From positions 1,302,001 through 1,366,000 of the forward strand of contig CAKKNE010000003.1 in assembly GCA_918797485.1 (NCBI GenBank): 64,000 nucleotides of DNA, written 5' to 3'. Under the pieces are notes generated by a model that ran no database searches, was not told where the DNA came from, and saw only the letters and a program-made list of their open reading frames with translations. Source of the DNA: Pelagomonas calceolata. Its lineage: Eukaryota; Sar; Pelagophyceae; Pelagomonadales; Pelagomonadaceae. Below, in pieces: positions 12,934-58,446 of this stretch. How positions within the stretch are numbered: position 1 is the first letter of the stretch; each line of letters starts with the position of its first letter. Position numbers and translations under genes: made by a program.

Positions 12934-13876
12934 TCTACTACTACGCGGCGCGTAGAGCCACCCGAAGATGGAGTAGCGCGACCGGTCTCCCGTCACTTTC
13001 GTGACCTCGTGGAGGCGCGGCACCTGTGTGGAAATCAAATTTCGGGCGCCCCACGCCATCGGCGCGATATTTTCTCCGTAGCTCCGTCTGCTCGATGGCG
13101 TGAAGTTTCCAGGCCATCGACGCGACGTTGTCGCCGATCGCGTCGGCTCGATGGCGTGGAGCGTCACAAAGGTCCACGCAATATTTCTCAGGATAATCTA
13201 ACTCACTGGTTGACTTCCACACAGCTCTCACGCGAAACGCGACGAGCGTGTTGTGGACCGGCGCGAGGCGCCGACCCGTCGCGTGGTCCACGAAGAGCCC
13301 GCCGAGCGAGGCGTCCCAGGTCGGCTCGCCCGTCAGGTAGTACACGAGCGCTATTCGGCGCTCGTGCGGCACGCCGTCTATCTCAACTACGGCGGCGTCG
13401 TCGTGTTTGACGATGTGGTCGCCTCGGCCGTAGCGCCCGAGCTGCAGCCGCGGGACTAGCCGACGCGCCCGCAGCCACTCGCTCGGGGCCACGCTCTCGA
13501 GCACGCTCTGTATTAGCGCCTCGACGTCGGCGTCCGGCGCGTCGACGCCTCCGTCGCCGACGGCGTAGCTGTGCCGCGTCGTATTCGTTTTTTTGCCGTG
13601 GGCCTTTGCGTCTGTCTTGGCCGACGAGCGGCGCCAGGCCTCCTCTGGCGCTTGCCTGACGAGGTCCGCGGCGGCAGCGGCCGCCTCCGGTGGCAGGAGT
13701 CCAGAAATGCGCACGAACCCGCCGGCGAGCGCGCGCGCGGCGATGCATGAGCCGTCTACATCGTCGCGCCGCCGTTTTTTGCCTGCTTTCTTGTGTTTTT
13801 TTGCTTTCCGTTTTACTGGCGGAGGCACCCAGCTCCCGCCGAGAGGCGCGGCCGCGGCAGCTAGCGCGTCATCCAT
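12931..13876 (-). CDS. 2-oxoglutarate/Fe(II) dioxygenase, prolyl 4-hydroxylase-like, one introner intron
   Basis: Coding exons are 13232-13876 and 12931-13023 (minus strand), 245 residues. A Lys/Arg-rich N-terminus is followed by a double-stranded beta-helix with iron ligands H158 and D160 (KHDD). Splicing joins ...LVAFR to VPRLHEV; this is the normal sequence around the distal iron-binding His, here H220, which lies on exon 2. If the intron is retained the frame stays open but the distal His block is replaced by unrelated sequence. The family hydroxylates proline or other residues using O2 and 2-oxoglutarate. The start at 13876 is chosen because the open frame further upstream (to 14116) looks non-coding; this is uncertain. 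Confidence 0.85.
13024..13231 (-). mobile_element. Introner-type intron, 208 bp, in the dioxygenase gene
   Basis: On the minus strand the intron begins GTGAGAGCTGTGTGGAAGTC and ends GATTTCCACACAG. Terminal repeats are CTGTGTGGAARTC and its complement. The 5' splice site lies in the 8 bases before the left repeat, presumably the altered target-duplication copy; the downstream copy starts GTGCCGCG. The interior contains the CACGCCATCGA / TCGATGGC palindrome elements common to this family. Splicing restores AFR-VPRLHEV. Confidence 0.9.
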
Positions 13877-14139
13877 TGATGCGCCCTTGAGGGCAGCTTG
13901 CAGCCAGTGCACCACCCAAGGTGGCAAGTTTGAGGAATCGATGCGGCGAAACAGCGCGAACCGATTGATAGTTGATCGCTTGAGTTTCTGAGCAGCGATG
14001 CGAGATTGGAACCGCTCGCTCCGAGGTGCAGCCCGGCTGCACTCGACAAGCTTGCAAGCTCTCAGACTAATGTGCGGGTCGTACGGCTCTACGACGAGAC
14101 AAATGTAGCAACACACCAGGATTCATCACAATCATATTA

Positions 14140-15351
14140 TTAAAACTCCTCCGCTGGAGAAGAATCGACCTCGACCTCGGCCAGCGCCCCCGCGTCCAGC
14201 GCGTCGACCGCGGCGACCTCGGTCGTCGCGAGGGACCGCCGCGACGCGACGAGGTACAAGTCCACAGCGAGCAGGAGCGCGAGGAACAGTTGCACGGGCC
14301 ACCAGCGGAACGATTTGGCAGGTTCTGGCGGCGGCGGCGGCGCGGCGCGCGCGTCCATGGCGTCTAATTTCTCAGAAGCATCCTGTTCGCCGCCAGCAAT
14401 CACGTCGGCGAGAGCGATGCCCCGGGCGGTGCGAGGAAACGCGCGCCGCGGCACGCCGACTTCTTCGAGCGCCGCGGCTGGGTCGGCGCCGCCGCACACG
14501 ACAAACTGCAGCAATTCCCTCGTCTCCGCGTCGAGGATGGGCTCGACGACGCGCCACGCTGCTCTCGCGACCAAAGGAGCGTCGATGACGACGTTGCGCC
14601 AGACGGCGTCCGCGTACATCCGTTCCGTGAGGCGCGCGTAGGCCGAGGCCAGCGACACCGTTTCTCTCCTTGCAAGAGCAGCATAGGACGCGTCCTCGCA
14701 GTCGCAGACGAAGACGCACTTGTAGACGCGGTGCGGGCCCCGCTTCCTCTGACACGCGGACAGGCGCTGGAGCGCGTCCAATGCTTGCACGCGCAGCCTT
14801 AGTACAGCATCGATCGGCATCTCCAGCAATCGGTCAAAGTCCACGTCCTTGACCCGCTCGACCACAATCAGGTGGCCCCACGGGTCCCGTCCCACGATCT
14901 CCGTCGGCCAGATCGCTCTGTGAAAGTCCGTGGGCGACAGGGACCCGCCGAGCGGCGGCTCGGGCGTCGTTCTATATCTGGCCCTTAGCGTCGTGACCTC
15001 CTCTATAATACATCGCTTGCGCTCGCCGTCGGCTCTTCGAAAGCCCCTCACCAACCGCAGGAAGAGGAGGTCGTCCCGCCTCAGCTCCGTCTTCGCCGTA
15101 TCACTCAAAACCTTCCAGAGCGCGTCGCGCTGCGTCCCTTCGTCGGCCGTCCAGCCCTCGCTCTCGCTCGGCCGCTCGAAGCGCCGCGGCGCCGGCGGCT
15201 GCTCGTCGCTCTCCTCCGTCAAGTCGTCCTCGGAGAAGGTCCGCCGCAGCGGCGTCGGGTAGCCCAGCGCCGCGGCGGTCGCCGGGAAGGTTTGAGTGGT
15301 CTGCTCGGTGAGCTCGTCGGTGAGCTTGCTGAGGTCGAAGTAGCTGCTCAT
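14140..15351 (-). CDS. SEC14/CRAL-TRIO lipid-binding protein with C-terminal membrane anchor
   Basis: 403 residues from an ATG at 15351. Residues ~92-127 look like the CRAL-TRIO N-terminal helical motif (LLFLRLVRGFRRADGERK), and ~142-310 like the lipid-binding lobe (DPWGHLIVVERV, then helices and VYKCVFVCDCED). Residues 350-369 are a transmembrane helix (WPVQLFLALLLAVDLYLVA). Sec14-like proteins exchange phosphoinositides and other lipids between membranes; a tail anchor would fix this one on an organelle facing the cytosol. N-terminal 90 residues are acidic and probably disordered. Ligand unknown. Confidence 0.82.
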   Translation of the reverse strand: MSSYFDLSKLTDELTEQTTQTFPATAAALGYPTPLRRTFSEDDLTEESDEQPPAPRRFERPSESEGWTADEGTQRDALWKVLSDTAKTELRRDDLLFLRLVRGFRRADGERKRCIIEEVTTLRARYRTTPEPPLGGSLSPTDFHRAIWPTEIVGRDPWGHLIVVERVKDVDFDRLLEMPIDAVLRLRVQALDALQRLSACQRKRGPHRVYKCVFVCDCEDASYAALARRETVSLASAYARLTERMYADAVWRNVVIDAPLVARAAWRVVEPILDAETRELLQFVVCGGADPAAALEEVGVPRRAFPRTARGIALADVIAGGEQDASEKLDAMDARAAPPPPPEPAKSFRWWPVQLFLALLLAVDLYLVASRRSLATTEVAAVDALDAGALAEVEVDSSPAEEF

Positions 15352-15682
15352 TTTTGTGGTGTCCAGAGAGCAGGTTCCAGCGCTCGCTGTTGGTTCAAAT
15401 TTGGCGCAGTGCTGCGTGCACCGTCAGAGCTTACACTTAGCGTGTTTACGCGTGCATGCTGTACGCAAGGCCATCTATATCCGTGCCGATGCCAAGCCGA
15501 GCTAGAAAGCTAGTGCGTCTAAGACGCTAGTGATCGTTGAGGCCCGGAGCGCCAGCCAGCCAGTACTTCACGTACTCACGCGTGGCAGACGCCCGCGAGT
15601 CGTACTGCTGTCTTATTGATCGCGCTGCGCGCCGCGACTCGCTTACTTTTGTGTGCAGCGGTCTCGCCAACACAACTTCACA
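15352..15682. promoter_or_regulatory. Upstream region of divergent Sec14-like and plastid-type genes
   Basis: 331 bp between divergent starts. It contains CTAGTGCGTCTAAGACGCTAG (15510-15530), a more symmetrical relative of the CTAG motif. No gene. Confidence 0.5.
15510..15530. repeat. Variant CTAG palindrome
   Basis: Left half CTAGTGCGTCT and right half AAGACGCTAG are nearly exact complements, making this the most palindromic relative of the intergenic motif. Membership of the same family is likely but not certain. Confidence 0.5.
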
Positions 15683-16564
15683 ATGGCACGCCATCGCCGC
15701 GGAGCACGACGGCGGGCGCTAGCAGTCTTATCCAGCGCAAGCGCGCTGCAGTGCCCGCAGCCGCCGCGGCGCCGGACGGTCCGTTTCAGCGACGCCACGC
15801 CGCCCGAGGCCGAGACGGTCGTCGAAGAGGCGGTGGTAGAGCCGCAGATGGTCGCGGCGCCCGTCGAGACGCCGGAGGAGCGCGCGGCGCGCGACGAAGA
15901 TGGCCCTTTGAAGGAGTTCGACTGGGACGCCCACCTCGCGAGGATCGAAGCGGACGACGAGGAGGCACGAGCGGCGGCCGCGGAGGAGGAGCGCCAGGCC
16001 TTAGCCGGTGGTGATGAATACCTGGCGGACGATCTCGACCAACTCCAGCCCGAACCGGTCGTCGACGACGAGCCCGAGTTCCTCAAGCCGAGGTGGGACG
16101 AGGTCGATCCCGCCGATGTCGACTTCCGAAACCCGCCCGCGTCGCGCGGCGCGACGTGGTCGCGCATCCACATAAAGTCGGACTGGTGGCAGTTCGAGGA
16201 CGGCGAAAGGCTGAAGACCGAGGAGGGCTGGGAGCGGTTTGATCATCGGGGCTACTCCGTGCCCGAGGGTCTTTTTGAACCTACGTTGGAGTTTACGTAC
16301 GGGAAGTTGGATCTGGACGTGGTGGAGCGCATCAGACCGGCCATGGACATCCTGTCGGGCTGTTCTTTATTGGAGGCGGCCGATGGTATTGTTAGAATCA
16401 AGTACATGGGCCCCGCGCGGAACCGCGTCGGCGTCGAGGCCTACGCCACTGGTTTAGTGGGGGACCTGTACCCGGAGATGACCTCTCTAAAGTTCGAGGC
16501 GCGCTTCGTGTCGGACTACCTTGATGGAAGTAGTGCGCATGCGATGGACGGGTGGCGGCAGTAG
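15683..16564 (+). CDS. Conserved-looking protein with plastid-type presequence, function not recognised
   Basis: 293 residues from the ATG at 15683. The first ~30 residues are Arg/Ala/Ser-rich with a short hydrophobic core (RRALAVLSSASALQC), compatible with an organelle presequence. Residues ~35-140 are acidic and low in complexity. The last ~140 residues look folded (DWWQFEDGERLKTEEGWERF, LDVVERIRPAMDILSGCS, IVRIKYMGPARNRVG). I do not recognise the domain. The gene starts 331 bp from the divergent Sec14-like gene and has no intron. Confidence 0.7.
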   Translation: MARHRRGARRRALAVLSSASALQCPQPPRRRTVRFSDATPPEAETVVEEAVVEPQMVAAPVETPEERAARDEDGPLKEFDWDAHLARIEADDEEARAAAAEEERQALAGGDEYLADDLDQLQPEPVVDDEPEFLKPRWDEVDPADVDFRNPPASRGATWSRIHIKSDWWQFEDGERLKTEEGWERFDHRGYSVPEGLFEPTLEFTYGKLDLDVVERIRPAMDILSGCSLLEAADGIVRIKYMGPARNRVGVEAYATGLVGDLYPEMTSLKFEARFVSDYLDGSSAHAMDGWRQ

Positions 16565-17224
16565 GTCCGGCGCGTGTCTAACTGAACTTGAAGTTATAGT
16601 CTACTTGTTTTTGCCTCTTGCGTCGCCGCGATGGCGTCGATCGGCCTGCGTAGAGCCCGCGAGTCCGGACGCGTTGCCTTGCGTCGCCTCGATGGCGTCG
16701 ATGGGGTTGCGCAGAGCCCGCGAGTCCGGACGCGACGGTCGCAATAACCACGCTCTTGTGCTCAAGACTGCCGCGGCGACTCGGAGGACCGCAACATGAT
16801 CGCCGCGGCGCCTATTCCGTGCATCGAATGTGGTGCGGGTTTTTCGGCTTGGTTTTCGGCGCGAGTACCTCTCTGAGCCGTCGACGCAGGCTAAAGGACG
16901 GCCGTAGACGAGTGATAGAGGCGTTTTTAGAGCAGACGCTGTGTGAGCCAAAAACAGGCACTGTGATCAGCCCGCCGTCGCTGTGCCCGTGCTCGTGCCA
17001 TGGCGAGCAATTTACTGGGCACTCGCCATGAGAGGCTCGTGTTGCAGTGTAGATTCAATCGCAAAGGAGAACGGAGGTTGCAATCCCCTCTGTAAACGAG
17101 AGCAGAGACGTCAAGATTAAAGTAAATCGGGCACAATTCGCGCGCCGCAATTGCGCAAGGGCCCATAGAGCTGTATTTGGTTCTTCCAGGCCCGCTGGGC
17201 CGCTGGCCCAAATCCGCGGCCCGG
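16565..17224. other. Intergenic region with a two-copy tandem repeat
   Basis: 660 bp without a credible gene. A ~56-bp unit occurs twice (16618-16673 and 16679-16734). The rest shows no recognisable feature apart from the expected promoter of the next gene. Confidence 0.5.
16618..16734 (+). repeat. Two-copy tandem repeat, period 61 bp
   Basis: Copies at 16618-16673 and 16679-16734 share TTGCGTCGCC, CGATGGCGTCGAT and GAGCCCGCGAGTCCGGACGCG with a few differences. The CGATGGCGTCGA part resembles the internal palindrome of the introners, so it may be a relic of one. Confidence 0.75.
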
Positions 17225-18984: not shown

Positions 18985-20267
18985 ATGGCGTCCTCGAAGA
19001 GCGGAGCCAAGAAGTTCTACCACACAACATCACAACAAGCCTACTACATGCGGCCGAGCGAGGCCAAGGTCGTGAGCTTAGAAGGCGCGAGACCGGTCGA
19101 CGACGCCCAGAAGGTGCGGTTAGGTATTGTTTCCATGACGAAGCGGCCGGCGGACCTGGAACAGTGGCTCGCGTATCACAGAAGAGTAGTGGGCGTCGAG
19201 AAGTTTTTTTTACAAATTGAGGATACTCCCGAATTAGCTGCTCTACTCTTGAGACCGCCCTGGAACGGTTGTGTGGATGCGACCTTCGTCGCCAAAACCC
19301 ATAGAGATTACTTCGTGCAGATGGACCGCCAGGCCGTGAATGTCGCGTGTGCGGTCGAAAGGGCAAAAGCGCACGGGATTGAATGGCTGCTCCATGTGGA
19401 CGACGACGAGATGCTGCACTGCCCGGCCGGTGCTGGTGCTATGCACGCCGCGTTGTCAGCGTTACCTACACAATGCTGCGACGCGCACATCAAGAATTTG
19501 GAAGCGCTCGCGCCGGCGCCTTCATGTACTAAACCTTTTGAGGAGTGCGTCACTTTTGTCGCGTCCACCTCGAAATTCGCGTCGTACACGAACGGCAAGA
19601 GCTTTGGAAGGGTGGGTGCTCCCGGTCTGCGGGCCCACGGCCCGCACCATTTCAGGGGAGATTCATTAAATGGCGCGACGCGCGACCTGCCGCCGTCCAT
19701 CGCGGTAGTGTTACATTATGAGTCCGTGGCCTACGAGCGCTGGACGACGAAGTTCTCGGAATTAGCAGCTAGACACGGCCACGACGCGAAGATCCTCGAG
19801 AAGCTGCCGTTCCCCTTCTACCGGGCATCTTTATCAGCGGTGGGCCGGCTGACGACGGTCTCCGATCGCGACAAGGCCAAGGCCGCCGACGACGCGTTCC
19901 GCGTGTGGTCGCGGTCGAAGCTGGTGGGCGAGTGCGCGCTCGCGCAGAAGGACAAGGTCGTCGTCTGTGTGGAAATCAACCAGTGCGTCGGATGACGCGG
20001 CCGTCCTGGCTCAGTCGAGCGGTGAGGAACCGGCATCGCCACGCCATCGAGCAGGCGTCGCGTCGATGGCGTGGAGGACGACGCGATGACTCAGCACGAA
20101 CGCGCCGTAAAATTTTGATTTCCACACAGGTCGTCGTGACAGCTATACGAGACGCATTAGCTCGACTGAACCTGCCGGAGGCGTCGGAAGCGGACCGCGC
20201 GCCGGCCGCGGCGCCGCCACCAAAACGGGCCAGTCTGGCGGCGAACCCGCCGCTGCCCAAGATCTGA
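18985..20267 (+). CDS. GT92/DUF23-like glycosyltransferase, one introner intron
   Basis: Exons 18985-19956 and 20130-20267 encode 369 residues. The start of the fold shows RLGIVSMTKRPADLEQWLAY and HRRVVGVEKFFLQIEDTPE, typical of family-92-like transferases, followed by the metal-binding DDDE in WLLHVDDDEMLHC. A central Cys-rich part and LHYESVAYERWTTKFSE complete the domain. No signal peptide or membrane anchor is visible, so compartment is unclear. The intron joins ...AQKDK to VVVTAIRDALARL; the exon-2 tail is Ala/Pro-rich and not part of the catalytic domain. Substrate unknown. Confidence 0.82.
19957..20129 (+). mobile_element. Introner-type intron, 173 bp, in the glycosyltransferase gene
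   Basis: A perfect 8-bp target duplication, GTCGTCGT, flanks 13-bp perfect terminal repeats (CTGTGTGGAAATC / GATTTCCACACAG). The 5' splice site is the GT of the upstream duplication; the 3' site is the CAG of the right repeat. Compared with the copy at 57657 it lacks about 36 bases near the left end, and the remaining ~150 bases differ at about seven positions, indicating recent activity. Confidence 0.95.
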
Positions 20268-20355
20268 ACCATTGCCCGCGCGCGCGCCCGGCGACGGCGA
20301 CGCTGCGCACACCCATCTTTAAAGTTTATTTTCTCTTCACTCACGTTACCCCTCT

Positions 20356-21574
20356 CTACTTCTTCCCCTTCATTTTGTCCTCGATCGCCTTGATCCGCCG
20401 TTGCACCGCTGACATCCCCTTCGTGGATTCGTCGTCGAGGGCGTTCGCCAGCGCCGTGCTGCGCGTCGAGAGCTGGACGTCCAGCTTTCGCGCGGGAGGC
20501 TTCGCCGCGGCGGGCGGCGGGACCGGGGCCGGCGCCGCAGCTGGCGGCGGAACGGGCGGCGCGCTCGACGCCTTCTTGTGCGCCGCGAGCGCGGTCGCGA
20601 CAGCCGCCACAGCGGCCTCGATGGCCGAATTCAATTCCTCGCACGCGTCGCGCTCCGCGGACTTGCGCGCCACCGAGTTCGCGGTCGCGGCCTGCGCGGC
20701 CAGGCCGTAGGCCGACCGCGCCGCGTCGACGGCGGCCCGCGCCGCGTCGAGGGGCGCGCCCGCGGCGCAGGCCTCGAGGGCCGCCGTCGCGGCATTTTTG
20801 GTTGAGGCCGCCGTGGCGTCGGCCTCGCTATCCCTAGGATCGAAGTTGCCCCGGAGCCTATCTAATTTCCGCATGAAGCGCATCGCCGTCCGGCAGGCCT
20901 TGTCCGCCGCGGCGACCTCGGGCAGCTCTTCGGGGTCGAAGGGTCTATCTACGGTGCCCTCCTCCTTGCCCTGGTTCTTGATCGCGTTGAGCGGCGCGAC
21001 CTGCGCACAAATCAAACAGTGAGTCGGGTGCTCCGTGATATATCTGAATCGAGTGGCGTAAGACCACACCACCACGCCATCGAGCTGGCGTCGCGTCGAT
21101 GGCGTGAAGGTCATGATTCAGCAGTGGCCGAGACGCGCCGCGACAATTTGATTTATATGCACTGCGCGCCACGGCTTTGGTGTTGAGGCGTTCCTTGAAC
21201 GCCTGGAAGTCCTTCTCGATGTTCGAGGGCCGGCCCGCCCTTTTGGGCGAGAAGTTGTGGGCCATGCACGCGTTCTCAAGCTCCTTTTTCAGCGCGGCGA
21301 TGACCGCGGGGTCAACCTTGCTCGGCGCGGCCTCGCGTCCCTCGACAGCCTCGAGCCGCGTCAGCAGCTCCGCGAGGCGCGTCTTGGCGGCTTGCCCGCT
21401 GGTCGTCGGCGGAGTCCACGCATCGATGGCGGCCCGCAGGTCTCCGCCGCCGTCCGCGAGTTTGCCTTCGACGATTGCTAGGCGCTCCAGCAGCGCGATC
21501 AAGCGCGGCTCGCCGGTGGCCGCCACGGCTGCCTTCAGCTCATCGGCCTCGGAGACTTCGGTGAGGGCACTCAT
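20356..21574 (-). CDS. Helical/coiled-coil protein of unknown function, one introner intron
   Basis: Exons 21173-21574 and 20356-21000 (minus strand) give 348 residues. Splicing joins LNTKA to VAPLNAIKNQ. The sequence is nearly all helical: ALLERLAIVEGKL and ELLTRLEAVEG early, an Ala-rich set of heptad-like repeats in the middle, a Pro/Ala linker (PPVPPPAAAPAPVPP), and a basic helix RRIKAIEDKMKGKK at the end. I do not recognise a family. It converges with the glycosyltransferase gene, 88 bases apart, and diverges from the lumenal-peptide gene. Confidence 0.75.
21001..21172 (-). mobile_element. Introner-type intron, 172 bp, reverse-oriented element
   Basis: Minus-strand ends are CAGTGCATATAAATC and GATTTGTGCGCAG. 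Target-duplication copies are GTGGCGCG (5', carrying the splice site) and GTCGCGCC (3'). Relative to the element in the dioxygenase gene it is inserted the other way round, yet still supplies a CAG 3' splice site. The CACGCCATCGA / TCGATGGCGTG palindrome is present inside. Confidence 0.92.
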
Positions 21575-21666
21575 TTGACACCGCGGGGCAGCGCCGTCGA
21601 ATGAATTTGCGAGCAGCGCACTTCGTTCACCGCGGGGCAGCCCCACAGCAAAAATCTGCTCTGTTT

Positions 21667-21690
21667 CTAGTGTGTATTACTGACGCTAGC
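21667..21690 (+). repeat. CTAG motif variant
   Basis: CTAGTGTGTATTAC then TGA and CGCTAGC; one small insertion relative to the consensus. It lies 46 bases upstream of the ATG at 21737 and 93 bases from the divergent start at 21574. Confidence 0.7.
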
Positions 21691-21736
21691 TCTGCCCATC
21701 TCCAAAGCCGTCGATTCGCCGTCATTTGTCGCATTC

Positions 21737-30902: not shown

Positions 30903-32483
30903 TTACTCAGGAGACCACATCCTCCGCGGCATGGTAAGATCTGGCAGAGCGACCGCATCCTTCGCTTTCGGCGCTCGAAAGGCGGTGGCCTCGGCGCGTA
31001 GCGACGGCGACCAGTCAGCGCGATTCGCGTCCAACCACGAGCGATCGGTGAACGCGTCACAGGAAAGTTTCGCATCAACCTTTGCTAAACGAGCAAAACC
31101 ATCATCGCCGCGCGCACCAACACGGCGCCGCTTAACTTTGGCATCGCCTGCAAACGAATAGTCCTCGTCCGCGGCGCCGGCCCCGTCGGATTCCAACTCG
31201 TACCTGTGAGGACCAGTGAGTCAGGTTAACGATATAAATTTGATTCTACGTCGAGCTCGTACCAGAGGAATTGCGTATTCGTCTGTTGAGTTACATAAGG
31301 GTTCTTTGGGTCCAGGCCCACGGAAAACGCTGCGAGGCCGCGGGCCGCCGCCGCCCGGTCCTTGGCCAAGTTATCCGTCTTGGCCTGTGCGCAAATCAAC
31401 CAGTGAGTCGGGTGTGCGTCGCGTCAAAAATTTGATTCGTGCACTGCCGCGGACGTCGTCGGCGACGATCCGTGCCGTCGCGTCGTCGACGTAGGTCCTC
31501 AAGCGAACGCAGCCCGTCTCCCACAGGGCAGACGCATCTACGGCCTGACCCTTAGAGGCCAGTTTGGCAGCAAGCGCCAGGTGGAGCTCGGCATCCTTGC
31601 GGCTTAACTCCTGGAGCAACGGGATGTCGTCGGGGTTGTTCGTGCGCGGATTGCTCTTCTGCGCAAATATACGACGGCTCTCCGTAGATCCCGCCTCGTC
31701 TCCGGCACCGAGCAAAGCGAGCGCTCGGTCCGCACCAGCGTTTCGTGCTCTTATAGCGTCTCCAACGCGATCGTGGGCCTTTTCAGCACTTCCGAACGCA
31801 GCGGCCGCTGCCGCATAATCTCCTTCGCGCAGAGCCGCTCGCCCGAGCAGCTCGTAGGTAAACGGGTTCTTCTGCTCAAGGTTCTCCAAGTTGTCGTCCA
31901 GTGCCAGTGCCGCGGCGGCGTCCTCGCGGGCCGCCGACCAGGCGCTGCGCGCGAATTCGAGCCTCGCTCGGAACAGCAGCGCCCGGGGTAGTTCAGCCGG
32001 GTCGGCCGCGGCGGCGCCCGGGCCGCGGAGCAGCCGCACTACCTCCGTCAAGTCCGCCTCTGCTTTGTCCGGGGCGCCCAAGCGATTGCGGGCGTCGGCA
32101 CGCAGCCGATACAAACCAGCTAATTCATCGTCCGGCAGTTTCTCGCTCTTCCAGGTGGTGATGGCCTTGTCGAGCTTTGCGACGGCGTCGGGCTTCTGCT
32201 GAGATGACGACTCCAGCGCGCTCTGCACTATTTGCAGCGCTGCTGGCGACGGATCGATGGCATAAGCTGGCACTGCCGTTGCTGAGAGAATGCCGGCTAG
32301 CAGTGCTGCTTTTGCGATGCATTTTCGATCGGTGCGCGTTGTTGAAGGGTGCTGAGTGCACAGTGCTGGCGCGGCTGCATGTGCCGCATGAATGCATTCA
32401 TGGCTAAGTACTGGTCGTGCTGGCACACGCTGCACCCTGAGCGCTCTGACGCCCAAGCTGAGCAGCAGACAGCGCCTCATCAT
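30903..32483 (-). CDS. Thylakoid-lumen-type TPR protein, three exons
   Basis: Exons 31455-32483, 31263-31384 and 30903-31203 (minus strand) give 483 residues. The N-terminus has a signal-like start (MMRRCLLLSLGVRALRV), a transit-like stretch, then a lumen signal (AALLAGILSATAVPAYA) before the mature IDPSPAAL. Several TPR units follow (DKAEADLTEVVRLLRG, AREDAAAALALDDNLENL, YAAAAAAFGSAEKAHD). Splicing joins RIVADD to AKTDNLAKDR and ...QFLW to YELESDG. The third exon holds a conserved-looking end (RADWSPSLRAEATAF, LPDLTMPRRMWSP). Likely a plastid assembly or interaction factor. Both introns are short elements of the introner type. Confidence 0.83.
31204..31262 (-). mobile_element. Introner-type intron, 59 bp (second intron of the TPR gene)
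   Basis: Flanking duplications are GTACGAGC and GTACGAGT. The interior keeps the left and right end signals AATCAAATTTATATCG and CTGACTCACTGG but has lost the central palindrome. Ends in CTCACAG. Splicing restores the reading frame (LW-YELESDG). Identical in length to the intron at 33150. Confidence 0.88.
31385..31454 (-). mobile_element. Introner-type intron, 70 bp (first intron of the TPR gene)
   Basis: Minus-strand ends CAGTGCACGAATC and GATTTGCGCACAG are the terminal repeats. The 5' splice site GTCCGC lies directly before the left repeat. The downstream flank (GCCAAGAC) no longer resembles it, so a target duplication is not evident. The CCGACTCACTGG end-A signal is retained. Spliced frame is open. 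Confidence 0.8.
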
Positions 32484-32891: not shown

Positions 32892-33277
32892 ATGGCCCTC
32901 GCGAAGGAGTCCGAGTCCTTCGACGAATATAGCATCGAGAAGCGCGGCAGCAGCGTCCGCCTCGAAAAGCAAATTGGCCAGTTCCAGTGCTCCTTCTGCT
33001 CGGAAGAGACGGACTTCTACGACATACAATTCGAGGACACGCACTGGTCCGTGGTCCCGCGACAAAACATGAGCCCCTCCGGAAGACGCATGACGGCCGA
33101 GGAAGTCGAGGAACTGGAGCGGCTCCAGGCCGCGGTCACTCATCTCAAGGTGAAATTCTGTGCGGAAATTTATGGCGCGCTCACCCCCACGCCATCGACG
33201 CGACACAGGTCAAGTTCGACCTCATCAACAAGGGCCAGGTCTCCAAGTCGAAGAGCACGCGCAACGCGAGCCTATAG
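32892..33277 (+). CDS. Small CXXC protein, one introner intron
   Basis: Exons 32892-33149 and 33209-33277 encode 108 residues. The middle contains FQCSFC, a CxxC pair, followed by SEETDFYDIQFEDTHWSVVP; the C-terminal half is a charged helix (TAEEVEELERLQAAVTHLK). Splicing joins HLK to VKFDLINKGQ and gives a stop 23 codons later, 18 bases before the convergent IQ/SAM/ankyrin gene ends. I do not recognise the family. Confidence 0.72.
33150..33208 (+). mobile_element. Introner-type intron, 59 bp, deletion derivative
   Basis: Target duplications GTGAAATT (5', carrying the splice site) and GTCAAGTT (3'). The left end CTGTGCGGAAATTTATGG and the core fragment CACGCCATCGACGCGACACAG'-type end are kept; most of the interior is lost. 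Spliced protein HLK-VKFDL continues in frame. Confidence 0.88.
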
Positions 33278-37176: not shown

Positions 37177-37840
37177 TTAGCTCGGAGGTCCGGGTAGTTC
37201 AGCGCACCGATGCGGGGGCCGCCGGAGGGAATCCGGCGACGCGACCTCAAAAGACGGGACTCGCGCGGCGAGCGCGTCGAAGGTACTCCGGAGAAGGAAA
37301 TCGATAGCGTCGGGCGGTGCGGCCGCACACTGCCCTCTGGGTGCCCGGCACGCGTGGCCGAAGGTCAGCGCCCCGACGGCGCGCGCGCCGGCGCGCTGGA
37401 GCCGCTCGACGGCCGGCGTGGACGGACGCTCGGGCGTCGCGCCGGTCGCGTTCCGCAGGAAGTCTAGGAGCGAGAAGTGGCGCCGCCGCCAGCGCGACGC
37501 GAATGCCTTCTCGGGGATTCGTAGCACTGCGGACTCGACGTCGACGTGGCCCGCGAAGGGCAGGACCATTTTGTCCGAGATGATTATAGGTATGCAGCCC
37601 GCCGCGAGCGTAGAAAACAAACCTGTGCACAAATCAACCAGTGCGTCGGGTACGGTGACGCGCAGTGTTGGCTGAAACGATCGGTGAGACCACACGGACG
37701 CGCCGCGACAATTTGATTTATGCACTGAAACAAAACGCTTCGTGTGCGCGGAGTCGCCGCGCGGGCAGGGGCAGAAGACCGATGCGCCGTAGAGAGCTCC
37801 AATGTCTAGTTTCGCGTTGAGTCCGCGCCAGTCGTATGCT
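37177..37840 (-). pseudogene. Truncated exostosin-like glycosyltransferase fragment, one introner intron
   Basis: Two exonic segments, 37737-~37840 and 37177-37622 (minus strand), encode the C-terminal part of an exostosin-type transferase: FCPCPRGDSAHTKR joins LFSTLAAGCIPIIISDK, then VLPFAGHVDVESAVL. The N-terminal half of the family is absent and no ATG lies in the open frame before the homology; the frame runs into the opposite-strand TPR fragment. It may be a gene remnant, or its 5' exons may lie elsewhere. The intron is cleanly removable and restores the family motif, so the break came after intron insertion or the gene still splices. Confidence 0.7.
37623..37736 (-). mobile_element. Introner-type intron, 114 bp, reverse-oriented element
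   Basis: Minus-strand ends CAGTGCATAAATC and GATTTGTGCACAG. Target-duplication copies are GTTTTGTTT and GTTTGTTT. Splicing gives HTKR-LFSTLAAGC, the exostosin consensus. The end-B signal AAATTGTCGCGGCGCG and the end-A signal CCGACGCACTGG are both retained. Confidence 0.9.
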
Positions 37841-48864: not shown

Positions 48865-48916
48865 CATGGTTAACAGTTCAAGGTGGCGCGTCGAAGGCGT
48901 GGGGACTGGCGCTAGG

Positions 48917-50316
48917 TCAACATCGGCCCTTGCGAACGGCGTCCTGTAACCGTCGCTCGGAGAACTCCTTGCCAAAAAAACCGGGGTAGATGCGCTCGAG
49001 CATGCCGTGGCCGAAGAGGTACGACGTCGGGCCGCACGTCGGGTTCTCTTTCTTGATGCGTCTCATCATCAAGTCTTTGAGTTGCGCGTCGGAGAAGTTC
49101 CGCGCGAAGTAGGCGTTGAACCTTCCTTTGGACGCGTTCACACCATCCGGGTAGATCTTCACGTCCAGCGCCGCGGGGCCGTAGGTTTGCGCGTCCGCGG
49201 GACCGTCCAACTTCACGACGTTGCCTAATTTACAACCTGCAGCTGATACCCAGCGCTCCCAGTCCGTGGCCCAGCCATTATCGGTGATGCCTGGGACTTG
49301 GCCTAGATCCTTTAGTACCTGTGTGCGTTGTGACCGTGACATCGGCGATGGCGTGCTGGTGGGAACAAGATCTCCCCGCCACGCTGTCGCCGTGCCAAAA
49401 CACATTGAAAGCTAGTACACCGCCGACGCACGAGGCTCCGTCTCAGTAGCGACGCGACGAAGAGCTCCTCGGACGAGACGCCGGGCCAGAAGCGCGGCTT
49501 GTTTCGGCGCCAGACTTTTGTTTCTTTGGACGTTTTCAACTCTGACAGAGTCTTTTCATTATAGCCCGGGAACATCAGATCAGACCCGGCCATCATCGCG
49601 AACCAGTGGTCCGCCGGGCAGGGGTCCCACCTCGTTAAGTGCGCGCCGTCGAGTGTCAAATCGAAGGCCTCGGGCGCGGCCGCGTCCGTCGTTAGGGCAC
49701 TGAGCAACGGCCGCAGCGCTTCAGATGATCCAACCCAGGTCATCTCGAACCAGGCCCAGACCGCGTCTCTCTGACTCGTGATCGTTTCGAGGAATTTTGT
49801 AAGGGACGCGTCGTCCCGGAATTTTAGTTTCGCGTCGAAGCGGATTTTGACCAGCACATCGAAGGCGTGGCCGTGCCTTTTTTCATTATGGTCGACCTGT
49901 TTCAACACTAAAGCGTGCTTGTACCACTGCCGCAACCAGAACGGCAAGCGCTTCTGGGCATTCATCTCTCGCTCTGTGAGTTCTCGTATATGTACGTTCG
50001 TGAGAGTCTGGCGGATTTTTGTCCCATCATAAGGCGGCTCCGTCGTGATGAACACGGGCGTCGGCTTTTGTAAAACTCGTGTTAATGATTGGGCCAGGGT
50101 TTGTATCGTCTCCAGGCCTTCCCTTGATTCGCGGTATGCCGCTGGGACCAGTATAGCGGCTCTACAATCGGCGCCGACGACGCATTTACTTTTTTGTGGT
50201 CTTTGTGCTGGCTTGTGGTCGAGGCTCTCGAGCACTTCGGGCCAGAACGCGGCCGTGCGCCAGTCCCGAGCGCTTGTGCTTGCCAGCAGCAGGAGTGCTA
50301 TTGTGTAGTGCAGCAT
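48917..50316 (-). CDS. Secretory-pathway protein, possibly glycosyltransferase-like, one intron
   Basis: Exons 49432-50316 and 48917-49318 (minus strand) give 428 residues. A signal peptide (MLHYTIALLLLASTSA) is followed by a region with AILVPAAYRESREGLETIQTL, VFITTEPPYDG, FDVLVKIRFDAKL and DPCPADHWFAMMAG, which resembles uncharacterised luminal transferases. Splicing with the 5' site GTGCGT joins LLRRSL to VLKDLGQVPGITDNG and keeps the frame; the second exon (SYLFGHGMLERIYPGFFG) looks coding. The exact 5' splice site is inferred. No enzyme family is certain. Confidence 0.65.
49319..49431 (-). mobile_element. Probable decayed introner intron, 113 bp
   Basis: Minus strand: 5' GTGCGTCGGCGG, 3' end ACGCACACAG. 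The interior retains CACGCCATCGCCGATG, close to the family's core. Terminal repeats are eroded. GTACTAGC near the 5' end and GTACTAAA after the 3' end look like a target duplication but that pairing would shift the frame. Confidence 0.65.
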
Positions 50317-51500: not shown

Positions 51501-51584
51501 CGCACGAGATTGCGCTCCCCTTCCCCCAACCAACAAAAAAAGTAAGGAATGTAAACGTTATCCCAAAATGATTACCCAGGAAGA

Positions 51585-53639
51585 CTAGAGGTCCTCGAGC
51601 GCCTGCCGCTCCATCGGGTCCAAATGATTGAGCAATAACCGCGGCAACTGGCCGCCGCGCGTCGCGTCGCGGATGTGCGCCTTCAGGCGGCGCGCGAGAT
51701 CCGCGAGAGTAGCCCTCCTCCGGTCCGCCTCCCCGAACTTCGCCTTGAGGGAGGGCAATTTCGCTTTTGTTTGGGACCACTGGTGCTCTACTTCATTAAC
51801 TTCCGCGTGCTTGTGGTCGAGGTCGGCCTTCAGCCGCTCCAAGTGTTCTTCCAGTAGCTCCATGTGTTCGGACAAATTCGCCTTTTCGTGGCCGAGCGTG
51901 ACGCATCTGACACGTAGCGTGTCGAGCCGCGCGTCCGCTAATTTCAGCTGGGCCCCCGCACAGGCGTCGACCGCTTCAGAAGCCTCCGCGACACATCTAG
52001 ATTGCAATCTAGAGACGTCGTCCGCTCGAGCCGCGGCTCGCGCCACGGCACCATCTAGCTTTTCTCGTAACCGCGCGTCGACGCGCTCCTGCCCCCGCAC
52101 CACCGACTCGACCTGCTGGTCCAACTCGTGCAACAGACTCTCGGCGGCTACTTTTTTTGACTCAATAGCGTTCATGCGCAAGGCGACCGCTTGGCGGGCG
52201 CCGTCGGCGTCGCGCTTCGCCGAAGCATTGGCTTCGCTCAGCCGCTCCTCGTCGCGCTTCGCCGCTAATCTGTGTTTGGCCTCGTCCTCGAGTAGTGAGG
52301 AACGCTCCTCGGTCAACGTATCCAGACACGCTTTACAGCGCTCCTCCACGGCTTCGGGCGCCTTCGTCGAGACGGCCCGGCCTAGAGCATCACCACTTGT
52401 AGGCTCCTTCTCTAAACAATCAGACAAAGTAGGACCCAGCCTCCCGCGATACGCCTGCAACCACAGCTCCGCCCGTCGTGAGATAGGTGCTCCTTCCTCG
52501 TCATCCTCATTGATGGCGCCGTCGGCTTGCGTCGCGAGTGCATCTAACGCTTGATCCGCGAGCTTCTCGGACCTTTCGGAAGCCTTCTGGGAGGCGCGTT
52601 GGATACAGGATTGCGCCGCTTGACGCATCGTCTCCCTTAGTTGAGTCGTCGGCACCGGAGGTGCTTTCCGAGCTTGCTTGGGCGGAGGCGCGACGGCTGT
52701 AGTTCTCTCAGAAAATTTCGTGAGGGCGTCGTCCGCCGCTTTCTTCAGGGCCGCTTCTAGACTAGAACCTCTTAAGTCCATGCGCTCGGCCTCATTTATA
52801 TCCTTGGCATGTGCGCTCGTTGCCTCACTCAAAGCTGTTTCATGTAATTCTTCAACAGCAGCAGTCCAGGCGTCCACTAAGGACGCTTTCCGGCAGTCCG
52901 CTAATCCATCCAGTAAAACCTCGACCTCCCTTCTTACCATGTTTCCCGTAGGGGCTCGTCCTAAGCAAGGTTTGGGCCGCGCCGCGTCGGCAGCTCGCTC
53001 CAAAAAGGCGTCGCGGGCCGCCTCCCTTCTTACAAACATGGACGTGATCAAGAGTCGCGCGTTGTTCCTTCTGGATTCCGCCTCCCCGAAACCTTTTTCG
53101 GACGCGAGGACCGTCTTTTCGAGCTGCCGCTGGGCCGTGCCCTCCTCAGAATCTCCGGAAAAGCACCACAGCAGCACGGGCATGGCCTCCCTCAAGCCTT
53201 CTCGTTCGGGTTCGAGCGACGCGTCCCGGTCGGTGTGGTACCGCGCGGCCTGCAACGCCTTGCCGAGGCACTCCCAGGGCGCGAGCTGCTGGACGGCGTC
53301 GCCCTCCGCTTTATACGCCACGACGGAAGCACTCAGTAACAAACAGCAGAGCGCGTCGGCGTTGTCGTCGCTCGTCCAATCGAGAAGCTCGACGTACGTC
53401 GCGCGGCAGCCGCGCGCCGTCGCGAGCGGCCGCGCGTGCGCCCAGGCCACTACACTATCATCGGTCGGCGGCTCAGTCAAAGTCGCGCGGAGGGGCGACG
53501 CGCCGAGGCCCAGGGCTATGGAGGCGTGGCCCTCGTCGCTTTTTAGGAGTGCCGCGCCGTCGGCGTGGAGTTCGAGCTTGCCCTGCTTGCGTTCCAGGAG
53601 TTTGACCCAGGTGCCGCTGCCTTCGAAATAAGCAGCCAT
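51585..53639 (-). CDS. GBP-like coiled-coil protein with degenerate GTPase domain
   Basis: 684 residues from the ATG at 53639. The first ~160 residues resemble the end of a guanylate-binding-protein GTPase domain (PLATARGCRATYVELLDW, then CCLLLSASVVAYKAEGDAVQ), but no P-loop (GxxxxGKS/T) is present. Residues ~170-300 look like the helical GBP middle domain (EAARDAFLERAADAAR). The last ~300 are long coiled coils (ALRMNAIESKKVAAESLLHEL, HMELLEEHLERLKADLDHKH). A non-GTP-binding scaffold derived from this family is likely. Intronless. Confidence 0.65.
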   Translation of the reverse strand: MAAYFEGSGTWVKLLERKQGKLELHADGAALLKSDEGHASIALGLGASPLRATLTEPPTDDSVVAWAHARPLATARGCRATYVELLDWTSDDNADALCCLLLSASVVAYKAEGDAVQQLAPWECLGKALQAARYHTDRDASLEPEREGLREAMPVLLWCFSGDSEEGTAQRQLEKTVLASEKGFGEAESRRNNARLLITSMFVRREAARDAFLERAADAARPKPCLGRAPTGNMVRREVEVLLDGLADCRKASLVDAWTAAVEELHETALSEATSAHAKDINEAERMDLRGSSLEAALKKAADDALTKFSERTTAVAPPPKQARKAPPVPTTQLRETMRQAAQSCIQRASQKASERSEKLADQALDALATQADGAINEDDEEGAPISRRAELWLQAYRGRLGPTLSDCLEKEPTSGDALGRAVSTKAPEAVEERCKACLDTLTEERSSLLEDEAKHRLAAKRDEERLSEANASAKRDADGARQAVALRMNAIESKKVAAESLLHELDQQVESVVRGQERVDARLREKLDGAVARAAARADDVSRLQSRCVAEASEAVDACAGAQLKLADARLDTLRVRCVTLGHEKANLSEHMELLEEHLERLKADLDHKHAEVNEVEHQWSQTKAKLPSLKAKFGEADRRRATLADLARRLKAHIRDATRGGQLPRLLLNHLDPMERQALEDL

Positions 53640-53806
53640 GGCGGGGGGTGGTTGGCCCTGGATCCAAATTTGCTGCGCGTCAAACGACACCACGCCTGGA
53701 TTGTCGCCACCAGTCGTTCAGTTAACGACCTTAGACAATGCGTATGGCGTCCAGTGGCTGCACCTGCAGGATTACGCGCAATTTGCCGCGCCCGGTTTGC
53801 TTGGTG

Positions 53807-53829
53807 CTAGTGTCTTATATGCCGCTAGC
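53807..53829 (+). repeat. CTAG palindromic intergenic motif
   Basis: CTAGTGTCTTAT, ATG, CCGCTAGC; one substitution. 168 bases upstream of the GBP-like start. Confidence 0.82.
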
Positions 53830-53932
53830 TGATTATTTCACAGCACAGCGAGTCGACGCTAAGTCGCTAGCCGTGGCAAATACGCGGGTCTACGCGGTGT
53901 TACACGTCGCACTTATTATTGATTTTCACACC

Positions 53933-54058
53933 AGCGCACAAAATTGTCCGTCCGACAGCTGCAAATTGCAACCTGGAAATTTCAGTGGGAAGGATGGCGC
54001 CGAGCCAGGTCGGCCGTGTCGTCGCCGAGACTTGTCGGACACTAGTTGATTTCCACAC
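53933..54058. mobile_element. Introner relic in or next to a small uncertain gene
   Basis: The right end is a clear introner end (TTGATTTCCACACAG, 54044-54058). The left end near 53933 (CAGCGCACAAAATTGTCCG) resembles end B of the reverse-oriented copies (CAGTGCATAAATCAAATTG). The inner GTCGTCGCCGAGACTTGTCGG matches part of the full-length family. No clear target duplication remains. It may be an intron of the frame at 54059-54311. Confidence 0.6.
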
Positions 54059-54311
54059 AGGCTCCACCCCGCCGGCGGACTCGCGGCTCCTCGCGCACTA
54101 CATGACGCCGCCGCCGGAACCGGCGTCGGTCAAGCTCCGGCGGAAGGCCAATAACGACGCCGGTGGAGCGTTTCGACGGTGGGCGCGGCGGCGACGGAAA
54201 ATAGCTCCTCTCCCGGACTCCGGGGCTACCTACTGCGGGCAGCGTCCGGGCTATATATGCCGCGGCCACGGCAGCGAGAAGCGGTGTCTCCCGGACGCCT
54301 CGTGCAAGTAA
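54059..54311 (+). CDS. Possible exon of a small basic, Cys-containing protein
   Basis: An open frame after the introner 3' end reads GSTPPADSRLLAHYMTPPPE and ends with GATYCGQRPGYICRGHGSEK and a Cys-containing tail before the stop at 54311. Four cysteines and the GYIC stretch suggest a small secreted or zinc-binding domain, but there is no confirmed first exon; an unspliced frame from 53994 (MAPSQVGRVVAETC) would read through the element. Low confidence. Confidence 0.35.
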
Positions 54312-54481
54312 ACTGGACAGCTAGCACGGGGGCGGACCCCAAATTTGAGATTCGAGTTCCCAGCCACTTGGCCGGGGGCGATTTTGGCTAAGGGTCCTCG
54401 AACGTGCTATCGGGGTGACACTGCTCGTCGTGGCGCCGCGCGATCCTTACAGATTTAACGATTTTTTACAAGTAGAGGTTT

Positions 54482-55663
54482 CTACCGGCGGCACCAAGAT
54501 TGGCACGCAATGTCTTCACCCCCCATCTTCACCGTCCGGTGCTGCCCGCAGGGCCCGCGGTAGCGCAGCTTCTTGAACGTGTAGAGCTTGCGCGTATCCA
54601 TGAAGTCGGCGATGATCACCGTCCGCCCGCGCTTTCCATCGCTCCGACCTTTATGGATCGTGTTGGTATCGAACAGGAAGCCTCCGCCGCGTGGCCCGAC
54701 CAGCTGCACGACGTCGTAATTGCTAGAAATATACTCGTCCGAGAAGCGGCTCTGTAAAAGATCTTTGTATTCGTAGTAATGCGTCCGGTGCGACGCCTCA
54801 GCAATTAAGGTCGGCCGTCCGTCGGCCTTGACATCGTGCAAGAACAAGAAGGCTTTAACCCGCCTTCCACACCTATCATGGTGCCAAAAACCGGAAGGGT
54901 ACCCAAGCAGGTTCGGCTCCGCCCCGGAGTAGGGCGCCGTGAGCCGATTCGTCAGGCGCAGCGCCCCGATTCTTGTGCGTACGTAGGCCTTGGCCCCGAG
55001 GTAGGCGTCGAGGGCCGCCCGGAGCCGCGGCGACGCGAGCCAGGCCGCCACGTCGCCGGGGAGCAGCGTCGCCTCGACGACGCCGGCCGTCAGGTTCTGC
55101 TTGCGTGCTTCTCTGCCGAGCGCCGCGTGGGCTTTTAGCGAGATCCGCGTCACATTTTCGAACGACAACCCCCAGTCGTCAATAATTGCAGCGCCCGTCG
55201 CGTCGAGGCGGCCCGCGTCGTGGGCCGCGAGGCGCCGCCTCGAGTTTCTCGCATCGTCACCGGTCGCACCGATCTGGTCCGCGTCGACCGTTGCGAGGCG
55301 CCGCCTCTCTGAACGCATGGCGTCGTGGTCAGCCGCTGTAAGGCGCCGCCCCGCCAAAGTGTCGTGCCGCAGCATGGCCCGGTCCACCGGCTGGTGCGCA
55401 ACGACCGTCTGGGCGAACTTCTCGAACGCGTCGTCTCGTGCATCGCGGGGGAACGCCACGCCCAGCGCGTTCCAGTGCAAGCCGCGGCCGACGGCGTCGC
55501 GGATGATCGCGTCGCCGCCCTTCCGCCGCAGCGCGTCGAGTTTGCGACGCCGCTTCTCCAAAACGCCAGTAACGTGGTCTCGAAAGACGTACGCGGCCGA
55601 GTCGTTGCGCGCCCAGGGTGTGAAGGCGGCTACTGGCACCACAGTGAGCAGGAGGAGGATCAT
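54482..55663 (-). CDS. PhyH-like 2-oxoglutarate dioxygenase, secretory
   Basis: 393 residues. A signal peptide (MILLLLTVVPVAAFTPW) is followed by a helical N-terminal domain containing a short repeated phrase, RRL with D and ATG spaced alike, three times (RRLTAADHD, RRRLATVDADQIGATG, RRRLAAHDAGRLDATG). The catalytic part has HHD as the first iron ligands (near residue 263, in GFWHHDRCGRRVKAFLFL) and NTIHKGRSDGKRG with the distal His and 2-oxoglutarate-binding Arg (near 336). It resembles phytanoyl-CoA dioxygenase-type hydroxylases. Substrate unknown. Divergent from the peptidase gene. Confidence 0.82.
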   Translation of the reverse strand: MILLLLTVVPVAAFTPWARNDSAAYVFRDHVTGVLEKRRRKLDALRRKGGDAIIRDAVGRGLHWNALGVAFPRDARDDAFEKFAQTVVAHQPVDRAMLRHDTLAGRRLTAADHDAMRSERRRLATVDADQIGATGDDARNSRRRLAAHDAGRLDATGAAIIDDWGLSFENVTRISLKAHAALGREARKQNLTAGVVEATLLPGDVAAWLASPRLRAALDAYLGAKAYVRTRIGALRLTNRLTAPYSGAEPNLLGYPSGFWHHDRCGRRVKAFLFLHDVKADGRPTLIAEASHRTHYYEYKDLLQSRFSDEYISSNYDVVQLVGPRGGGFLFDTNTIHKGRSDGKRGRTVIIADFMDTRKLYTFKKLRYRGPCGQHRTVKMGGEDIACQSWCRR

Positions 55664-55996
55664 GGTCGCATCGCTGGGCTGCCCTTCGACGCTGCTGCCT
55701 CGCGATACTCAGGAGGTATAAATCGTCTCCCAAAAGTCCGCTTGGCGACGGATGTGCATCAGAGGCAGCCAGAGCCAATAAAATTAATTAATCATTCCTA
55801 GTGTCTTACCGCCCGCTAGCTAATCTTCGACGCCGACCAAGCGCGTGCACGCGTCCAGGTCGCATCTTGCAAGCTTCGCGCCTGCAATTGCAGCCAGACC
55901 CGTTTCGCCGCCGCAGCAGTCCTTGCACCGCGCACGTGGAATCCCTGCAAACACGTAGTCAGCTCTCCCAAAGCTCCCCAGCCGTACAGATCAAAA
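55664..55996. promoter_or_regulatory. Upstream region of divergent PhyH-like and oligopeptidase genes
   Basis: 333 bp with one CTAG motif and an AT-rich run (AATAAAATTAATTAATC) directly before it. No gene. Confidence 0.5.
55798..55820 (+). repeat. CTAG palindromic intergenic motif
   Basis: CTAGTGTCTTAC, CGC, CCGCTAGC, a full-length copy. 135 bases from the minus-strand start and 177 from the plus-strand start. Confidence 0.85.
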
Positions 55997-58446
55997 ATGG
56001 CAATGATCGCCCGCCGCCTCGCCCTAGGAGCAGCGGCAGCCACGTCCTTATTCAACGAGCGCGTGCAAGCGCTCAGCGCCGCTGCCAAATCGAAGGCCGT
56101 GCCGCCCGTGGCCCCTCGCCGACCGAAGGACATCCTCTTCGGCAAGGTCGCCGGCGAGGACCGCGGCCCGAACCCCATGGACCCGCCCATCGTCCGCCAG
56201 GACCCCTACTTTTGGTTAAGGGACGACACGCGCAAGGACAAGGACATCCTCGCGCACCTCGACGCGGAGAACGCCTACTCCCAGGCGCAGACGGCGCATC
56301 TGGAACAGTTCCGCGAGTCGCTCTATCAGGAGATGTTGTCTCACGTCAAAGAAGACGACGATACGGTGCCGTACAAAGATGGGGACTACATGTACTGGTC
56401 GCGGACCGTCAAGGGGCTCTCGTACAGACAGTACCTCCGCAAGCGCGTCGGGACCGAAGATGAAGTAATATACCTAGACGTCAATGAGGTCAGCAAGACC
56501 TTACCCAATCCAAAACAGTGCGTCGTGAACCAGGTCGAGGCGTCGCCGGACGGGAGCAAGATCGCCTACGCCGTCGACGGGACCGGATATGAGACTTACG
56601 ACATCGTCGTCAAGTACTTAGATGGTTCGAAGCCGGACGAAACGATCACGAAGACCATGGGCGGCGTCGCGTGGAAGGATGAAAAGACCTTTTATTACGT
56701 GGTGGAGGACAAGAGCCACCGCCCTTATCAAGTGTGGCGGCACGTTTTGGGCGAAGCCCAAGATCAAGACCAGCTCGTCTATGAGGAGCTCGACGATCTG
56801 TACAACGTTGCGTGTTGGCGATCTTTAGATGGGTCGCTGATCTTCATCGAGGCCGAGTCCAAGGAAACGACGGAATTGAGATTCATCCCACAAAGCGGGA
56901 CGGAGCCGGTCTTAGTGAGAAAGCGCGAGCCGGGCGTGCGCTACGACGCCGCTTCTCATGCACCCTCGTCTTCGCTGATCCTCACGTCGAACATCGGCGG
57001 CCTGCGCAACCGTGCTTTATTTACGGCACCCGTTTCGGCACCGGCGGACTGGACGCCGCTCATGGATTCTGAAGGCGCCGCCGTGCTGCCCCACGACGAG
57101 GGCCGGTCGCTGGACAACCCGCGCGCTTTTAAGGACTTCGTCGTCGTTACTGGGAGGGAAGATGGCTTCACGCAGATCTGGGTCGCGCCGCTTACGGCGT
57201 CCGGCGACCAGGAGTGTTCCGCGCCCGTCGCGGCGCAGGCGCACCGAATGCAGTTCGAGGCCGACGCGTTCACGGCTCGCTTAGGCGCCAACGCGGAGTT
57301 TGACCCCCAGCAACAGCTGCGCGTCACCTATTCCTCGACCGTCGCGCCCGGCTCGACGATGCAGTACGACATCGCCACTAAGGGTTACGAGGTCCTCAAG
57401 GTCGCGCCCGTCCCCAACTACGACGCTACCTTGTATGATACGGAGCGCCTGGAAGTGCCGGCGCGCGACGGCGTGAAGATCCCGGTGACGTTGTTTTGGC
57501 GCAAGGACCAGAAAAAGCCGAAGATGCCCACGCACTTGTATGGGTATGGTTCTTATGGGATTTCCATGGATCCCTCCTTCTCCGCGTCGCGGCTAGCCTT
57601 AGTGGACCGCGGCATCTGCTACGCCATCGCCCATATCAGAGGAGGCGGCGAGATGGGCCACCACCTGTGTGGAAATCAACCAGTCTGTCGGGTGCCCCGA
57701 CAATCTTCACTAAGTCATTTCTCGGCGATGACGCGGCCGACCTGGCTCGGTCGAGCGGCGAGGAACCGGCATCGCCACGCCATCGAGCAGGCGTCGCGTC
57801 GACGTCGTGGAGGACGACGCGATGATTCAGCACGAACGCGACGTAAAATTTTGATTTCCACACAGGTCATCACGAGTGGTACGAAAAACAAGGTAAATAT
57901 CTGGCGAAGAAGAACACGTTCCATGATTTTGTGGACTGTGCGCGATACCTCAAAGAGAAAGGCATCAGTGGCGACATGTCCTGCGAAGGCCGAAGCGCCG
58001 GTGGACTGTTAGTCGGCAACGCGGTCAACCTCGCCCCGGAGGCCTTCAACGCCTGCATCGCCGGCGTCCCTTTCGTGGACTTGATGACGACGATGTGCGA
58101 CCCGTCCATACCACTAACGACGGAGGAGTGGGAGGAGTGGGGCAATCCTAATGAGGCGAAGTATCACGACTACATGCTCTCGTATTCTCCGATTGACAAC
58201 GTGCAGGCGGGCGTGACGTACCCCCAGATGTTGTTGGTGAGTGGCCTAAACGACCCGCGCGTCGCCTACTGGGAGCCGGCGAAGTGGGCTCAAGTATTAA
58301 GGCACGAAATCGCGAACGGCGACGAGACGCTCGTGAAGATGGATATGAGCGCTGGTCACTTTAGTGCGGCGGACCGCTACCGCTACCTGCGCGAGCTGGC
58401 CTTCGACTACGCCTGGCTGCTGGACGTGTTCGGGAAGGCGGAGTAG
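55997..58446 (+). CDS. Prolyl oligopeptidase family (S9A, oligopeptidase B-like) peptidase, one introner intron
   Basis: Exons 55997-57656 and 57866-58446 encode 746 residues. A short presequence-like start (MIARRLALGAAAATSLF) precedes a seven-bladed propeller beginning DPYFWLRDD. The alpha/beta-hydrolase part has GYGSYGISMDPSF, RGGGEMG, and the triad Ser597 (GRSAGG), Asp683 (GLNDPRV) and His718 (MSAGHFS). Splicing joins GGGEMG to HHEWYEKQGKYLAKKNTF, the normal family sequence, so the intron model is well supported. The family cleaves peptides after Arg/Lys or Pro. The intron carries a GC 5' splice site. Confidence 0.93.
57657..57865 (+). mobile_element. Introner-type intron, 209 bp, with GC-AG splice sites
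   Basis: Terminal repeats CTGTGTGGAAATC and GATTTCCACACAG are perfect. Target-duplication copies are GCCACCAC (5') and GTCATCAC (3'). Only use of the GC at 57657 with the CAG at 57863-57865 restores the peptidase sequence EMG-HHEWYE. This is the longest copy and appears nearly intact, including a ~36-bp segment that the copy at 19957 lacks. Confidence 0.93.

Follow-up and report, generated by a model that had tools for sequence, protein, structure and literature searches.

Short DNA transposons as probable introns of Pelagomonas calceolata, with donors from the duplicated target and acceptors from the terminal repeat

We analysed a window of 64,000 nucleotides from the pelagophyte Pelagomonas calceolata (assembly GCA_918797485.1, contig CAKKNE010000003.1, positions 1,302,001 to 1,366,000 of the forward strand; 63.5% GC), in which a first-pass annotation had defined nine introns and attributed nearly all of them to one family of mobile introns, or introners. 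This observation was right in substance, with several errors of detail. We consider it very probable that the copies are introners, that is, short non-autonomous DNA transposons with terminal inverted repeats (TIRs), spliced out together with the upstream copy of their target site duplication (TSD1). As judged from the sequence, the 5' splice site (donor) is supplied by the duplicated target and the 3' splice site (acceptor) by the terminal repeat. The origin of new introns is a long-standing question, and this genome shows the passage from transposon to intron copy by copy. Moreover, P. calceolata is an abundant oceanic alga of which strains have been sequenced, such that intron gain and loss could be tracked in populations.

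Introns made by transposons are already known. DNA-transposon introners were reportedly found in Aureococcus and Micromonas by Huff, Zilberman and Roy in 2016, and the Introner Elements of Aureococcus anophagefferens, also a member of Pelagophyceae, are said to be short non-autonomous DNA transposons with TIRs and target duplications, one splice site being carried by the element and the other reportedly co-opted from the duplicated target. By description only, the Pelagomonas elements are alike in TIR/TSD design and in the co-option of a splice site. The present analysis adds the mechanism and an orientation rule, both followed copy by copy.

In the proposed mechanism, elements of about 60-215 bp would be moved by a transposase that produces 8-bp target duplications. 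Upon insertion into a gene, TSD1 would become the 5' splice site, with the requirement that its first two bases be GT or GC (GY), while the 3' splice site would be formed by the final bases of the repeat at the element's end (TTGATTTCCACACAG). The spliceosome would then excise TSD1 and the element, presumably with a branch point inside it, and retain the downstream copy (TSD2) in the mRNA, leaving the protein unaltered. Since the main end type has CACAG at both termini, an insertion should function either way round; copies with one good end would survive only when that end lies at the 3' side of the gene.

The family is large. The genome searched was the assembly of 32,445,274 bases in eight contigs; the main text of the RCC100 genome paper gives 32.4 Mb, 6 nuclear contigs plus two organelles, and 63.6% GC (PMC9481584). 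A genome-wide search for the consensus end returned 1,642 exact copies of the terminal 14-mer CTGTGTGGAAATCA (833 forward and 809 reverse), against 0 for the reversed control. Within the window, 12 sites matched the 15-base end consensus at 14 or more of 15 positions (0.0 in Markov shuffles), and composites of TIR and TSD scoring at least 27 had no counterpart in shuffled sequence. Ends on the part of contig 1 listed for both strands numbered 41 forward and 36 reverse and formed 21 pairs, equal to 56 copies; extrapolated to the genome, this amounts to about 1,200 copies in which one end or both are exact, and capture-recapture gives a rough figure of about 1,500. Relatives of the element at 57657 have 92-96% identity and are scattered over five contigs, with 810 first-look candidates genome-wide, meaning that many similar introns occupy unrelated sites of one genome. 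For comparison, about 0.45 introns per gene are given for 16,667 genes in the same main text, which also describes duplicated ends of contigs 1 and 5 (PMC9481584); one element is common to these two contigs at an equal position (C1:6975, C5:6974). A search of viral contigs with the TIR pair at its commonest spacing found no match.

The anatomy of the copies is that of DNA transposons. Sixty regions around exact ends on contig 1 yielded 63 end pairs, which, with six window copies added and two spurious pairings removed, gave a scored set of 67. Among these, the duplications are identical in 29 copies (8/8) and match at 7/8 in 17 others, compared with 0.03% and 0.8% of chance pairings; terminal inverted repeats and a duplication of fixed 8-bp length are both present, as in the class summarised in PMC9860276. 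The sampled introns (TSD1 plus element) span 68-214 bp and cluster at 209-214, the size produced by the commonest element and a length shared with the introners noted in PMC9481584. That paper pointed to introners via intron length; its main text holds nothing on ends, duplications, splice logic or an orientation rule. At least two end types exist, a symmetric one (CTGTGTGG) and an asymmetric one (CAGTGCAY/CTGTGCAC). Several copies keep the donor and CACAG despite the loss of most of the interior or of one TIR (31204 and 33150 in the window, L031 and L059 in the sample). In imperfect duplications, TSD1 departs from TSD2 toward the GTRAGT donor consensus 14 times and away from it 5 times, which is suggestive only of a drift of TSD1 toward a better donor after insertion.

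The copies in the window, as predicted from the sequence, are as follows.

13024..13231, minus strand: introner intron; host gene a 2OG-Fe(II) oxygenase; TIRs at 13024-13038 and 13210-13224; donor GTGAGAG, acceptor CACAG; TSD poor, 3/8
19957..20129, plus strand: introner intron; both TIRs intact; perfect TSD GTCGTCGT, 8/8 (19957-19964 and 20130-20137)
21001..21172, minus strand: introner intron of the asymmetric end type; in sense, 5' end CAGTGCAT and 3' end GTGCGCAG; TSD 6/8
31204..31262, minus strand: decayed introner intron of 59 bp; TSD GTACGAGC/GTACGAGT, 7/8; 5' TIR eroded; acceptor CTCACAG; in-frame splice
31385..31454, minus strand: short introner intron of the asymmetric end type; TSD unrecognisable, 2/8
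33150..33208, plus strand: internally deleted introner intron of 59 bp; TSD GTGAAATT/GTCAAGTT, 6/8
37623..37736, minus strand: asymmetric introner intron; host gene an exostosin (GT47); TSD GTTTTGTTT/GTTTGTTT with a one-base insertion
49319..49431, minus strand: probable old introner intron; acceptor CGCACACAG at 49319, ending in CACAG; blind frame break there
54046..54060, minus strand: intact TIR of a tenth copy; body about 53920-54060, other end decayed
57657..57865, plus strand: introner intron; host gene an oligopeptidase B; both TIRs intact; TSD GCCACCAC/GTCATCAC, 6/8; GC donor

All nine introns of the annotation are of introner type, 49319 probably so, and eight of them splice in frame or have strong flanking coding sequence when cut as TSD1 plus element. 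Either of two sites could be the donor of 49319: GTACTAGC (49418), TSD-like but out of frame, or GTGCGTCGG (49431), in frame. A tenth copy, with its end at 54060, had been overlooked; it sits upstream of the minus-strand gene at 51585-53693 and carries no intron assignment. The copy at 21001, with GCGCAG at its end, contradicts the statement that every intron ends in CACAG. Of the seven copies said to lie between imperfect 8-bp duplications, five do so (31204, 21001, 33150, 57657 and, by its inserted base, 37623), 19957 has a perfect duplication and 13024 matches at only three positions; 31385 has ends of the asymmetric type and no recognisable duplication. The copies at 31204 and 31385 are two distinct introns of one minus-strand gene, the better duplication being that of 31204, and splicing both together keeps the frame (coding scores 14.3 and 14.0). 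The predicted splice at 21001 is likewise in frame and stop-free (scores 26.2 and 27.6).

Splicing is supported because, at three window copies, flanks joined at the predicted junctions restore domain homology. Specifically, splicing at 57657 raises the Peptidase_S9 match from 17.4 to 184.1 bits, and the junction is bridged by an alignment to a solved oligopeptidase B (PDB 4bp8). At 37623, Exostosin_GT47 rises from 48.3 to 65.9 bits, with an alignment to solved EXT2 across the junction. At 13024, the 2OG-FeII_Oxy_3 match rises from 30.5 to 54.1 bits and spans positions 2-98 of 98, and the alignment to solved OGFOD1 (PDB 4nhx) bridges the junction. A donor inside the element (CT|GTGTGG) was rejected, since the spliced product would be 10 nt longer and out of frame, while a cut at the start of TSD1 restores both frame and domains. 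In a predicted fold of the 57657 intron RNA, the two TIRs pair and the 8-nt donor segment is left unpaired next to the acceptor (z-score -4.2).

The same logic recurs in the sample. We used a codon model in which the element and TSD1 were excised and the empty site was scored for coding sequence and strand; 54 sampled copies fall in coding sequence. In the sense of the gene, TSD1 begins with GT or GC in 51 of the 54 (GT in 35, GC in 16), as against 17 of 54 in antisense (Fisher 3.7e-12). Two of the three exceptions look like strand errors, and the third is 13024, with a donor GTGAGA one base further in. The element ends in AG in sense in all 54 and in CACAG in 52. One splice site is thus carried and the other co-opted from the duplicated target, in the manner attributed to the Aureococcus elements. 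The frame is continuous over the empty site in 40 of 42 cases, a result expected of any coding insertion and not in itself proof of splicing. Taken together, the coding frame, the homology across three window junctions and the donor and acceptor bias indicate that the copies are spliced introns, and the genome-wide sample together with the restored domains argues for both mobility and splicing, as the annotation had proposed. As a separate observation, GC replaces GT in about 30% of introner donors among the sampled copies of contig 1, an unusually high share.

Orientation appears immaterial when both ends are good and decisive when one is damaged. By internal sequence, symmetric copies with CTG at both ends lie in the two orientations relative to the gene in 18 and 17 cases. 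Ten coding copies have one non-CTG end (CAGTG, CCGTG or CGGTG), a kind of end that yields no AG acceptor; all ten carry it at the 5' side of the gene, and none of the 54 carries it at the 3' side (p=0.0012). Window copies with one such end are 21001, 31385 and 37623, and exact CAGTGCRYAAATCAA ends number 108 genome-wide. The CAGTG ends suggest an ancestral element that ended in CAG, like hAT elements. Tentatively, and with somewhat more doubt than belief, we hypothesize that a single base change (CAGTG to CTGTG) turned this transposon family into an orientation-independent intron maker. Substitution of T for A at the second position of an ancestral CAGTG end would have converted CACTG to CACAG on the other strand and thereby made a bidirectional acceptor; the 15-bp repeat would then hold an entire 3' splice site both ways, with CAGTG/CTGTG intermediates persisting as one-way introns.

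Could the copies be ordinary miniature inverted-repeat transposable elements (MITEs) that remain unspliced and give pseudogenes or read-through proteins? The frames at 55997-58012 and 12941-14116 do stay open through the element, and 6 of the 54 coding copies could be read through; left unspliced, however, 42 would be frameshifted and 6 stopped, such that 48 would break their gene. Splicing is needed to explain why GY at the TSD depends on the strand and why acceptors are lost on one side only, and conserved domains are restored in the spliced versions, all of which makes unspliced MITEs highly improbable. Spread through intron RNA that is reverse-spliced, a route put forward for some introners of fungi, would agree with copies that lie mainly in coding DNA and carry splice signals; perfect TIRs, 8-bp duplications and both orientations relative to internal sequence are unexpected from such a process, which we regard as scarcely credible. 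The GY bias might instead reflect a target preference of the transposase and not selection for splicing, given that GY stands at one TSD edge in nearly all copies, including those not called coding. Gene orientation is invisible to a transposase, yet the sense edge is favoured in the proportions given above, and we consider this reading unlikely, although a mild symmetric target preference may act in addition to selection.

Some points weigh against splicing of transposon-derived introners as we describe it. Sampling was confined to one chromosome arm and to copies with at least one exact end, with the effect that older copies are under-represented. The codon model misassigns the strand of the gene in a few copies (L015 and L029 look so). 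Finally, no transposase with introner ends was found in the genome. The sole hAT transposon found is a complete single copy of 3,651 bp at C4:4499549-4503199 (L079:4050-7700) with one open frame of 721 aa; it interrupts a MYND/RINGv-TPR gene, has a TSD TTGCTCGC identical at 8/8 and appears recent. It shares with the introners an 8-bp TSD and a CAG-type end, some introner copies ending in CAGTG, but its 14-bp TIR (CAGGGCAGCAGAAG, 14/14) is unlike the introner ends, and it was rejected as their partner. KDZ, P-like and MULE transposases (PF18758, PF21787, PF10551) gave no match in the genome, in a weak search with positive controls for PF10551 only. Copies with one exact end were considered as long autonomous elements; those read were internally deleted or decayed.

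The claim that nearly all introns are introners holds for the introns resolvable in the window and not fully for the genome: in 100 kb from other parts, three of seven clear coding interruptions lack these ends and have a different 5' motif. A gene finder that picked splice dinucleotides failed to separate real from decoy sites, so it served only for a blind frame-break scan, which ignores splice signals, on the window and on ten 10-kb regions at round coordinates. In the window the scan recovered four introner sites, plus one doubtful break within an open frame. The 100 kb elsewhere gave nine breaks: four introners (of which one has the acceptor CATAG and another a TSD1 one base longer), two doubtful cases and three introns without these ends. 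These three have in common a motif, CGGCGTCC, close to the donor, and inside them lies a similar motif of ACGCCATCGA type. At least one additional, older group of introns thus probably exists genome-wide beyond the main family. A search for the 5' motif GCGGCGTCCCTTTG with one mismatch found 56 sites against 19 in the control, a modest excess, and the introns with this motif, whose duplications are indistinct, may form another introner group of greater age. A GCGGCGTCCCTTTG-like motif soon after the donor, together with CGCAG-type or CACAG ends, was seen in introns at L081:6858-7078, L086:~6130-6550 and L088:~1300-1361, and also in L096, L098, L100, L101 and L103.

Two other motifs recur in the window. 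An internal hairpin motif (CCACGCCATCGA...TCGATGGCGTGG) occurs in elements of differing end types at 20034, 21067 and 57770, and also outside introners at a few sites, such as 58453-58496. The motif CTAGTGYCTTAC..CGCTAGC, often directly upstream of open reading frames, is found at the following sites.

4092, 9560, 10892, 30112, 30866, 32517, 36124, 53807 and 55798, plus strand: CTAGTGYCTTAC..CGCTAGC
47288, minus strand: CTAGTGYCTTAC..CGCTAGC

It is probably a core promoter element, and it occurs in most of the random 10-kb regions as well.
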